Positions 59,244 to 63,967 of a stretch of 64,000 nucleotides of DNA are shown here, piece after piece. The notes under the pieces were generated by a model that worked only from the letters and a program-made list of their open reading frames with translations, did no database searches and was not told where the DNA came from. The translations under genes and the position numbers were made by a program. Numbering within the stretch: the stretch's first letter is position 1; the number at the start of each line of letters is the position of its first letter. The stretch is from the NCBI GenBank assembly GCA_022827625.1, contig JAJEIE010000012.1:1-64000 (forward strand), read 5' to 3'. The DNA is from Candidatus Poribacteria bacterium. Its GTDB lineage: Bacteria; Poribacteria; WGA-4E; WGA-3G.

Positions 59244-60743
59244 ATGGCTCACTTTTTTTCTCAAGCAAGCCGGACTTTCAGTGAATACTTGCTTTTACCT
59301 AACTTAACGACGAAGGATTGTATCCCTGAAAACGTTATCCTGAGAACCCCGCTGGTGAAGTTTAAAGTCGGACAACAACCCTCTCTGGAAGTAAATATCC
59401 CGTTTGCTTCTGCGATCATGCAAGCCGTTTCGGATCACAATCTGGCAATTGCACTCGCAAGACAGGGAGGGATATCCTTTATTTACGGGTCCCAAAGTAT
59501 TGAAGAGCAGGTGGCAATGGTCCGTACGGTTAAAAATCACAAAGCGGGTTTCGTTGTCAGCGACTCAAATTTAAAGTGTGATAGCACAATAGAAGATGTC
59601 GTGAAACTCACCGAAGAAACAGGACACTCGACGATTGCTATAACCCATGATGGTTCGTCTTCAGGTGAACTACTTGGACTGATAACGGATAAAGATTATA
59701 GATTGAGTCGCGTGGATTTAAAGGCGAAAGTCAGCGAATTCATGACCCCGTTTCCCGAACTCATTGTGGGTCAAAAGGGAATTACAATTGAAGCCGCCAA
59801 CGACCTCATTTGGGACCACAAGATAAATTGTCTGCCGATTGTTGATGAAAATCGTAAACTGGTACATTTGGTTTTCAGGAAAGATTACGATGACCACAAG
59901 AAAAATCCGCTTGAATCCGTAGATTCCCAGAAAAGACTTGTCGTCGGTGCTGGCATTAATACCAGAGATTACAAGGAGAGAGTACCCGCACTGGTCGCAG
60001 CAGGGGTCGATATTATTTGCGTTGATTCCTCCGAAGGATATACAGAATGGCAATCAGCCACGATTCAATTTATAAAAAATAAGTACAATGGGACTGTGAA
60101 AGTAGGCGGCGGGAATGTCGTTCACGGAGATGCATTTACGTATTTGGTAGAAGCCGGTGCTGATTTTATAAAAGTAGGTATCGGTGGAGGGGCTATTTGT
60201 ATAACACGGGAACAGAAAGGCATTGGTCGTGGGCAAGCGACTGCCGTCATTGAAGTCGCTCAGCAAAGGGATCAGCACTTGAAAGAAACCGGCGTTTACG
60301 TGCCAATTTGCTCAGATGGTGGTATCTTCCAAGATTATCATATCGGTTTGGCTCTTGCGATGGGTGCTGATTTCGTGATGATGGGTAGATATTTTGCGAG
60401 ATTCGACGAAAGTCCCAGTAAGATAAGAAAATTGGGTATGAATACAGTGAAAGAATATTGGGGTGAAGGGACAAAGCGCGCCTCTAATTGGCAACGCTAT
60501 CACGAGGGCGGCGGTCCAGAATTATTGTTCGAGGAGGGTGCTGACGCTTATGTACCTTACGCAGGAAAGATGAACGATAATTTGAAAACGACCCTCGCAA
60601 AAATTCGATCGCTCATGTGTAATTGTGGGGCGATATCCTTACCGGAATTTCGTCAAAAAGCGAGATTCGTGTTAGTCTCTTCAGCAAGCATCCGCGAAGG
60701 CGGTGTTCACGATATTATTCCAAGAACGACACAGGATGGATAA
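59244..60743 (+). CDS. guaB: IMP dehydrogenase of the Tritrichomonas foetus type
   Basis: A 499-residue protein after AGGAGGACTGAACA. A catalytic barrel with inserted CBS pair (about 95-220). The active-site loop is [20 protein letters not shown], with the catalytic cysteine at C319. The flap contains WQRYHEGG (Arg-Tyr pair), and the C terminus has [10 protein letters not shown] and [11 protein letters not shown]. It oxidises IMP to XMP with NAD, the committed step to GMP. Segments such as [14 protein letters not shown] match the T. foetus enzyme, a known mycophenolate-resistant form with bacterial relatives. The two selenoprotein genes follow, the first only four bases away. Confidence 0.95.
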
Positions 60744-60747
60744 AAAA

Positions 60748-62400
60748 ATGAAAACAGCCAACAACAAAATCACGCTCAGCCTTGATGGTAACGCAGAAGT
60801 GACTGTCAAAGGCTTCATTGCTCCGATTGAGCATACCGCAGGCAATTTTCATAAGAGATGGGATGCGTTGGCGAATCTACGGGCTGCGGCACCAGAAAAG
60901 CGGTATACTGCTTCCGTTTTTCGTGATTTTCTTCCATCAGAAGCCGTTTCGGTGGGTGAGTGTTGGAAAATTAAAGAAGCCAGTGTCGAGGAATTGCTGA
61001 AACAACTGCATCCCAATCCGTCATTGGAGATGCGTGTAGGGATGTACGGCATAGAAGAGGCAAAAGGTCTTCGGGCATGTCTGCGGGCGTACAACGATCA
61101 ATTGGTTCACATCGTGTTTCGCATCCATGCGGAATTTGCCTTAGAGGACGGTTGGTTCACACCTTCGCAGTTCGCTGGACATCTCGTTATGGATCGTAAC
61201 CAAAAGACTGTCGTTTTCTTTCAGATGCACGTCCCTCCAAGCACACTAAATTTTGATGTCCATTGGGAAACGACATTAGAAGGTTGGAACGCTCCCAGAT
61301 GGATTACAGATGGCGGTTACTGCTCACAAATGGAACTCCGTGCCGGTTCAGAAGATGTTTTAAAGGACACCGAATTCACAACAGCAATCACAGAAAAAGA
61401 AGCAGAACGTCTCCTAATCCTGCAATTCTACGAATCGCAGCAAATTAACTGGGTATCGTTAGAGGAAGCATTGGAAATGACCCAGGTACAACAGAAGCCC
61501 GTTCATGTCATTTCACTTGATGGTCCGCTCTTTGATGAGGCATGCTGAGGGAGCGGCAAAAGTTTGAGGGCAGGTGCTCTCGCTCATGAACGCGTCATCA
61601 AATTCTTGAATGAAAATTTTATCAACACATGGGTTTCTAATTTTGAATTTGGCAGGAAGCCAAGCGCGCGAGAATATCTTGCCAAAAGATACGCGAATGA
61701 ATCTAAATCGTTTGACACTACACACGCTTTAGCACAAGCAATCAAGAAGGGTTGGCAGGAGCGCTCGCCTGTGGATTGTCTCGTTATATCCCCTGATTTT
61801 GAATTGAAAGGTAAACTCGCTTTGAATAAATACCTCTCCGGCGGTCACGGCTTAGAGGGGGGCAGAACAGCAGCAGAAAATTACCGACTGTTCCTCATTG
61901 AAGCCTTAGAAGGGAAATACCCCGGATTCAGTCCTGATAACGCTTTCGCTTATCTATTAGGCGAGGAAGAGGGTACCCCTGAACAGGAAAGCCCTTTCAA
62001 ACCTTTCTTAACAGACTTGGAGGTTGTGCTCAACCCTACACAGCCTACGTTGGAAGTATTGGATGTTATTCGGACGCAGGAGTCTACTATCGTGAGAATT
62101 GATGCTACTGCCTTTGAAAAGGGTGGGATACTCACCATTGATATACGTGTCGGGAGTGCCCAACTTGCTGGCTCTTTCTATTTGTATGAAAGTAACATCG
62201 AATTCCCGACAGAACGTGGGCAACGTTACTATCACTCGTTTGCCAATGCGATGGACACTCTACCCGATGGAACGGCACAAATCACGTATCTTTTTTACCA
62301 AGGTCAAGTTTTTAAACTCGTAATTACAGCCTCCGAACGGGTGGATAACAAAACGTCTGTCAATGCTTTCCAAGCAAGGATTTCCGTAGCGGAGCATTAA
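60748..62400 (+). CDS. Predicted selenoprotein 1, thioredoxin-like domain (Sec at codon 267)
   Basis: Read as one 550-residue protein: 266 residues, TGA at 61546-61548 as selenocysteine, then 283 more in the same frame to TAA. The N-terminal part (KITLSLDGNAEVTVKGFIAP to FNFDV-like) is of unknown function. From about 235 the sequence is thioredoxin-like: QINWVSLEEALEM, KPVHVISLDGPLFDEAC, then U-GSGKSLRAGALAHERVIKFL and NENFINTWVSNFEF. The TGA splits this fold between its second strand and helix, so neither half alone would fold. A SECIS-like hairpin lies 17 bases after the TGA. The start is ATG 60748, four bases after guaB. Alternatively two genes, the second from TTG at 61564, but that TTG lies inside the hairpin context and has no ribosome site. 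Confidence 0.8.
61546..61581 (+). promoter_or_regulatory. SECIS-like selenocysteine insertion element 1
   Basis: TGA at 61546-61548, 17 bases, then stem GAGGGC (61566-61571), loop AGGU (61572-61575), stem GCUCUC (61576-61581), six pairs including one G-U. Bacterial SECIS hairpins lie within about 16-37 bases of the UGA and have a GG in the apical loop, recognised by SelB. Both features are met. Confidence 0.75.
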
Positions 62401-62401
62401 A

Positions 62402-63967
62402 GTGAAAACATTGCAAAATAAAATCCCGCTCAGCCTTGATGGTAACGCAAAAGTGACCGTTAAAGGCTTCATCGCACCGATTGAATATACACAATATGAC
62501 TTCCATGTAAAATGGGACGCTTTAGCAAATCTGCGTGTTGCTGAAGAAAAAAAACATTATCCGGCATCAATTTTCTCCGACTTTCTCCCTAAAGAAGCCA
62601 TCTCTGTGGGTACGCTTTGGGAGATTGAACACGAAGGTGTGCTGAAATTGCTGAAGCAACTCCACGCCAAACCGAATCTGGATATGCATATCAATTCAGG
62701 AGACTCGCGTGGATTATGGGCATGCTTGCGCGCTTACAATGATGAATTCGCTGACATCGTGTTCCGTATCCATGCGGAATTTGCTTTAACGGACGGTTGG
62801 TTCACGCCTTCTCAATTTACTGGACATCTTCTGATTGACCGAATTAAAGAAAAGATCGTGTTTTTCCACATGTACGTTCCTCAAGGGGTCCTGAATTTTG
62901 ATGTCAACTGGAAGAAGGACAAAGACCAACCCGATGTGATTACAGATATCGGCTTTTGTCCGCAAATGGAACTCCGCGCTGGAGTAGAAGGCGTTGTGCA
63001 AGATACCGATTTTTCGGAATCTATAACAAAAAAAGAAGCCTCCCAGAAATTAATACGCTGTTTCTACAAATCGCAACAAATTAACTGGGTATCCCTTGAA
63101 GAGGCGTTGAAGATGGCACCCGCACAACAGAAACCGATCCACGCTATTTCCATAAATGGACCGCTTTTCGATGAATCCTGCTGAGGGAGTGGCAAAGGCT
63201 TGAGGGCAGGTGTCCTCTCTAAAGATGAAATTATTGAATTCTCGAATGAACACTTCATTAATACATGGGTCCCCAATTCTGAGTTAGGACGTATCCGTAG
63301 TTTGCGGGAACCGATTGCCAAAAGACGCGAGCGTGAAGGCAAGACGTTTGACATAACACACCCTTTGGCACAAGCAATTATTAAGGGCTGGAAAACCGGA
63401 GCAAAGAAAGGTTCACCGGTAGATTGCTTCGTTATATCGCCAGATTTTGAATTGATGGGCAGACAACTTGTCAATGAACTTGGGAAAGACAGTAAGCGTA
63501 GAGGCCTTTCAGGGTACGGGTATTATCTCACATTTCTTAAGGAAGCCTTGGAAGACAAACAGCCCGGATTGGGCAATCTTATCCTCACCAGCGAACACCC
63601 TTCGCAAGAGGTCCTGGACATTTTCCGAACTCCAATAGGCGGTCATCAGAATTACACCATCGTCGTGATTGATGCAAGAGCCTTTGAAAACGGTGGCACG
63701 CTCACCATTGATATTGAAGTCGGCAGAGAAGATAGTGATGGGACGTTTTATCTTCTCAAGGGCGATACGGAATTCCCCACAGAAGGAGGGGTACTGTATG
63801 AAGACGTACTTGCTGCGGTATGGAATGAACCCGGCGAGACAGGACAAATTACGTATCGTTTCGACCGAGGTCAATTTTTTAAGTTGGGTGCTATTGGATA
63901 CTCGCACGAAGCGGAAGAATCCCTCAACGCGTTTCATGCGAAAATTTCTGTAGAAGTAGCAAATTGA
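62402..63967 (+). CDS. Predicted selenoprotein 2, tandem paralogue (Sec at codon 261)
   Basis: A 521-residue paralogue of the gene before it: 260 residues, TGA at 63182-63184, then 260 to the stop. The GTG start is one base after the upstream stop, so translation is coupled (GGAG before it). The same blocks occur: IPLSLDGNAKVTVKGFIAP, RIHAEFALTDGWFTPSQF, QINWVSLEEALKM, KPIHAISINGPLFDESC, then U-GSGKGLRAGVLSKDEIIEFS and NEHFINTWVPNSEL. The C-U dipeptide and the five codons after it are preserved though the flanks have diverged, which argues for a functional TGA. The second part (about 265-520) differs more between copies. Confidence 0.8.
63182..63217 (+). promoter_or_regulatory. SECIS-like selenocysteine insertion element 2
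   Basis: TGA at 63182-63184, 17 bases, stem GAGGGC (63202-63207), loop AGGU (63208-63211), stem GUCCUC (63212-63217). Compared with copy 1 the 3' arm changes at two positions (GCUCUC to GUCCUC), swapping G-C and G-U pairs so that all six pairs remain. Spacing and loop are identical. Confidence 0.75.

Follow-up and report, generated by a model that had tools for sequence, protein, structure and literature searches.

Two adjacent genes of a sponge-associated Poribacterium are, judging from their sequences, almost certainly tandem paralogues that encode selenocysteine (Sec)-containing bacterial homologues of selenoprotein N (SelN). They are located in the window, i.e. the whole stretch of 64,000 nucleotides that was analysed, whose host belongs to Candidatus Poribacteria according to named records. 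The two genes are separated by 1 bp, and gene 1 follows a gene of the IMP dehydrogenase family at a distance of 4 bp on the same strand. The features are listed below with their positions in the window.

59244..60743, + strand: IMP dehydrogenase-family gene (Pfam IMPDH, 8.7e-105), given as context only
60748..62400, + strand: gene 1, predicted selenoprotein N homologue 1 (550 aa, ATG start, Sec267, stop TAA; translated with TGA as U)
60748..61359, + strand: predicted SelN-specific N-terminal domain of gene 1 (residues 1-204, mostly beta; from the SELENON alignment and an AlphaFold2 model with pLDDT mostly >90)
61360..61899, + strand: predicted thioredoxin-like domain of gene 1 (residues 205-384, with Cys266-Sec267; pLDDT 83.8 and PDB fold matches)
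61546..61548, + strand: putative Sec codon TGA of gene 1, aligned with human Sec462
61566..61581, + strand: predicted bSECIS stem-loop of gene 1, GAGGGC-AGGU-GCUCUC (fit to the published bSECIS model, stem conservation and codon bias)
62014..62397, + strand: predicted C-terminal beta-sandwich of gene 1 (residues 423-550; from the model, PDB matches and its sharing with sigma factors)
62402..63967, + strand: gene 2, predicted selenoprotein N homologue 2 (521 aa, GTG start, Sec261, terminal stop TGA; translated with TGA as U)
63182..63184, + strand: putative Sec codon TGA of gene 2 (from the translation and the alignment to human SELENON, Sec462)
63202..63217, + strand: predicted bSECIS stem-loop of gene 2, GAGGGC-AGGU-GUCCUC (same three grounds as for gene 1)

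Re-reading of the sequence returned both frames as the initial annotation had described them. Each gene has a single in-frame TGA, at a homologous point in both, flanked by DEAC-TGA-GSGKS in gene 1 and DESC-TGA-GSGKG in gene 2, and the frame remains open for 283 and 260 codons, respectively, 3' of this codon. Of 146 related genomes, 65 have homologues, commonly several each, and nearly every homologue has exactly one TGA. Read from the fetched loci, the Sec codon is TGA in 191 of the 192 distinct homologues and TCA (Ser) in the remaining one, and the family alignment shows conserved protein sequence directly on either side of it. A gene 1 orthologue from a genome of the same genus, 86% identical, also keeps the TGA. 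If this codon were a true stop, the genes would be nonsense-mutated pseudogenes or would each encode two proteins, the second restarting at a TTG; a TTG-started frame does follow each TGA, and one paralogue has Ser at the Sec position. Such a reading is very improbable given that the TGA is kept in nearly all of these diverged copies with conserved residues immediately flanking it, that the predicted thioredoxin-like domain requires both halves, and that no relative was seen in which the halves are encoded apart.

Besides conservation of the codon, translation of TGA as Sec is strongly supported by a predicted recoding hairpin. According to the published bSECIS model, a stem-loop lies 16-37 nt after the UGA, with a G in the first two loop positions, a stem of 4-16 bp and an MFE at or below -7.5 (PMC13188914). 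Such a hairpin, satisfying all these features, occurs in 158 of 176 sequences, including both window genes, versus 0-2% of control windows taken from the same genes. Furthermore, of 170 distinct sequences, 168 form a stem of at least 5 bp with an apical loop about 22-25 nt after the UGA, whereas 17% of the synonymous shuffles do so. The folding energy along the message reaches its minimum at the UGA, with about -13.5 kcal/mol per 50 nt, as compared with about -4 to -10.5 away from it. The Arg codon of the stem is AGR in 187/187 sequences (22% elsewhere) and the Leu codon is CTC in 181/187 (16% elsewhere); the predicted hairpin is kept by biased synonymous codons. The Rfam scan of the region returned no SECIS family and a single match, at chance level. 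The invariant AGR codon of the bacterial stem corresponds to human R469, a residue with patient mutations (PMC3541580). This makes it attractive to regard a signal in human SEPN1, its selenocysteine redefinition element, as a candidate relic of a bacterial SECIS.

The host also has the machinery for Sec insertion. The genes pointed to in the initial annotation, selA, selB, selC and selD, are all present in the genome: the tRNA-Sec (78.1 bits, above the Rfam cut-off) adjoins selB (347.7 bits), while selA and selD score 595.4 and 362.4 bits, and selD is itself of the Sec type, with its own in-frame TGA. Across the phylum, 75 of 85 genomes have a tRNA-Sec that scores above the cut-off. Frames that are open across TGA could also be expected if this codon had been reassigned in the lineage as a sense codon (e.g. 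Trp or Gly), the proteins then being ordinary ones. However, each gene has one TGA, always at the same position, the Sec machinery is complete, and the SECIS-like hairpin is found at the Sec TGA but not in the control windows elsewhere in these genes. Moreover, since 23 of 83 members, including gene 2, also end in TGA at a conserved C-terminus, this codon has not simply been reassigned, and we regard reassignment as scarcely credible. The proposal of one selenoprotein per gene is thus supported by TGA conservation, the predicted SECIS and the Sec machinery, and it withstood those of the initial annotation's own refuting tests that were feasible.

Nearly all selenoproteins have Cys homologues (PMC13188914), and Cys (TGC/TGT) at the TGA position had been proposed as a check. 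Its outcome is negative: the 192 members include no Cys form, and a single one, with Ser, lacks Sec. The Ser-encoding paralogue (L055:7863-9479) has TCA in place of the Sec codon, the rest of its frame being intact. Conservation, SECIS and machinery carry the selenoprotein conclusion even without a Cys homologue.

The initial annotation had left the N-terminal domain unrecognised and considered the protein type possibly undescribed. This does not hold, since the N-terminal and thioredoxin-like domains are those of eukaryotic SelN. BLASTP against human SELENON gave E=1e-36 for gene 1 and E=8e-37 for gene 2, with about 30% identity over 254-316 columns and the TGA placed on Sec462; at 316 columns, the similarity spans both domains. 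The human query was not a database copy; it has 590 residues with Sec at position 462 and shows the correct residue at every variant position checked. G273E, H293R, N340I and W453S are among the SELENON variants considered. The other human variants used in this check come from published work (PMC12839072, PMC8967691, PMC7853070, PMC3541580). Across 30 diverse members from bacteria, there is no variation in the columns of human G273, R291, H293, G315, C461 and R469; the N340 column has Asn in 29 of these 30 rows and the R466 column has Lys in 29 and Arg in one, while W453 is not generally conserved among them.

The bacterial proteins have the SCUG-type Cys-Sec motif, as [SA]C-U-GSGK within a thioredoxin-like fold. 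An origin as a separate Sec-containing thioredoxin-like family that converged on SelN only around this motif might be invoked from the level of identity, the different C-terminus and the lack of an EF-hand. It is nevertheless highly unlikely, for the homologous region includes an N-terminal domain that is not thioredoxin-like, with the motifs FRIHAEF, QFxGH and LNxD in common with SelN, at the E-value given above, and residues mutated in human disease are invariant. Sequence searches of Pfam, NCBIfam and PDB with the whole proteins and with profiles gave no significant family match. The window proteins have no EF-hand loop, and Pfam finds none; neither do they have the hydrophobic N-terminus that corresponds to the type II topology of animal SelN. 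They are hence to be viewed as homologues of SelN, not as demonstrated functional equivalents, and calcium sensing is not transferable from the animal protein because the EF-hand is absent.

The fold around the Sec residue is confidently predicted to be thioredoxin-like. As the fold search with the whole model was swamped by the C-terminal beta-sandwich, the thioredoxin-like domain of gene 1 was modelled separately, and its matches in PDB are DsbH, AGR3, a UAS domain and TXNDC12. This supports the initial placement of the TGA at the redox site of such a domain, the nearest solved folds being DsbH, AGR3 and UAS domains. The C-terminal domain, which human SelN lacks but which recurs in membrane-anchored ECF sigma factors, matches PliG, collagenase binding domains and pre-peptidase C-terminal domains.

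The family is expanded in Poribacteria. A degenerate pattern around the TGA was found in 65 of 85 genomes of the phylum, with about 380 sites in sum and none for the reversed control pattern, which is much more than chance could produce; one poribacterial genome reaches 15 pattern sites and the window's own genome has five. In the tree, a compact SelN-like poribacterial clade, most members of which are devoid of the extra domain, is distinct from a second poribacterial clade that is strongly expanded and includes the window genes. The window's own genome also has a compact SelN paralogue without the C-terminal domain (L054:5279-7192, - strand; GALDDESCUGTGK), which is nearest to animal SelN around the motif and 33-34% identical to the window proteins. 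Outside Poribacteria, SelN was found in 5 of 398 genomes of the Fimbriiglobus class (Planctomycetes), with TGA in all of them; selB is above the cut-off in three of these five genomes and only below it in two. The genome-wide scan, limited to two short peptide patterns of which one demands TGY at the Sec codon, gave only one Planctomycetes locus, whereas the class-level search gave the five genomes. SelN had no match among plasmid records. The branch of human SelN in the tree (2.0) is too long for placement, so that any transfer between bacteria and eukaryotes might have run either way.

Other candidate selenoproteins were observed in Planctomycetes. Two of them (L148, frame from 1294, and L157, frame from 985) have a Sec-type thioredoxin domain with RCUGGATNL followed by a region resembling the N-terminus of SelN; these proteins of permuted order are possibly a further SelN-related family. 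Two others (L145 and L156) are thioredoxin-like with the motif LDxxFCUTNARL.

Some SelN genes are associated with ECF sigma factors. In 20 of 91 loci, the surroundings of the SelN genes include a gene with Pfam Sigma70_r2 and r4. These neighbouring sigma factors carry a hydrophobic membrane helix and a C-terminal beta-domain of the type found in the window proteins (for instance L052:3983-5371, L053:5410-6825 and L057:14353-15690), those of L052 and L053 being next to SelN copies that belong to the same genome as the window but lie in other places. Furthermore, three genomes encode, in a single frame, a sigma factor, a membrane helix and a full SelN (L078:4904-7030, L080:5044-7128 and L081:5035-7140), and the only TGA of each fusion frame is the Sec codon. 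A signal-like N-terminus is found in at least 24 members, and a hydrophobic N-terminus also occurs in Fimbriiglobus. The window pair has neither a signal peptide nor an adjacent sigma factor.

In the mechanism that we propose on these sequence grounds, the UGA would be read as Sec by the standard bacterial route, the downstream hairpin recruiting SelB with Sec-tRNA-Sec. The product would be a thioredoxin-like oxidoreductase whose active site, on the predicted fold, is the adjacent Cys-Sec pair C266-U267 of gene 1, similar to the SCUG site of animal SelN. This pair may form a selenenylsulfide/selenol-thiol centre that works on another protein, most likely by reducing or isomerising it through thiol/selenol chemistry. 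A thiol-redox action of the SelN homologues is likely, and the role of the window pair is probably cytosolic thiol redox, cytosolic because it lacks both a signal peptide and an adjacent sigma factor. Since other members are exported, located beside ECF sigma factors with the same C-terminal domain or fused to such a sigma factor, at least part of the bacterial family may be a redox input to transcription, in the way that animal SelN passes a redox signal to a calcium pump. Less surely, an ECF sigma factor might be informed of the redox state outside the cytoplasm by the Cys-Sec centre of exported and fused members. Within a single chain, a periplasmic SelN domain bearing Sec would directly control the sigma factor to which it is fused; where the two are separate proteins, exported SelN would be paired with sigma factors through their common beta-sandwich domain. 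Signalling through sigma factors by part of the family is a tentative proposal, slightly short of an even chance, and we put forward with the same reserve the idea that Poribacteria employ the expanded SelN-type selenoproteins as receptors of redox state whose signal crosses the membrane and reaches ECF sigma factors.

SelN is known from animals; the apparently new part is its bacterial branch, the copy number and the sigma-factor fusions. Our analysis extends to two bacterial phyla a protein that is known, in the literature searched, from eukaryotes alone, and adds a large SelN family among whose members no Cys form turned up. Loss of SelN causes a congenital muscle disease (myopathy) in humans, and its biochemistry is poorly understood. 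Bacterial SelN proteins, which often have no membrane segment or EF-hand, could provide soluble models for structure determination and redox assays. In addition, judging from the fusions with sigma factors, selenocysteine may be able to take part in relaying signals to transcription. By standard gene calling, each of the hundreds of genes of this family would be broken up into two hypothetical ones. A search for Poribacteria together with selenoprotein in open-access full text returned nothing.

SelN is missing from the 119 prokaryotic selenoprotein families and subfamilies that were inventoried in May 2026 (PMC13188914). Like the selenoproteins inventoried there, the predicted poribacterial proteins have Sec at the redox site of a thioredoxin-like fold and a bSECIS just after the UGA; unlike them, they belong to a SelN-type family and have no Cys homologue among those found. 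As in Escherichia coli fdhF, the hairpin closely follows the UGA, and the apex of the Planctomycetes SelN hairpin (GAGAGC-AGGUCU-GCUCUC) has the identical GCAGGUCUGC; the poribacterial apex, in contrast, is mostly AGGU or AGUU and is located about 6 nt farther from the UGA than that of fdhF. Like known ECF sigma factors with an extension, the neighbours of SelN have a membrane helix and an extension in addition to sigma regions 2 and 4, but what extends them is either the beta-domain associated with SelN or an entire SelN selenoprotein; a text search of the cited sigma-factor review finds no mention of thioredoxin. Finally, the bacterial proteins resemble animal SELENON/SEPN1 in having an N-terminal domain followed by a thioredoxin-like one, Cys-Sec followed by GSG[KR]xLR with the TGA at Sec462, and invariance of most of the human disease residues checked; moreover, some have an N-terminal signal or anchor, as does human SelN. 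They differ from it by the lack of an EF-hand and by a predicted bacterial SECIS located in the coding region instead of a SECIS in the 3'-UTR. The window copies differ further in being predicted to be cytosolic and in having the extra C-terminal beta-sandwich, and the bacterial family as a whole differs by its multi-copy tandem arrays and its fusions with ECF sigma factors.
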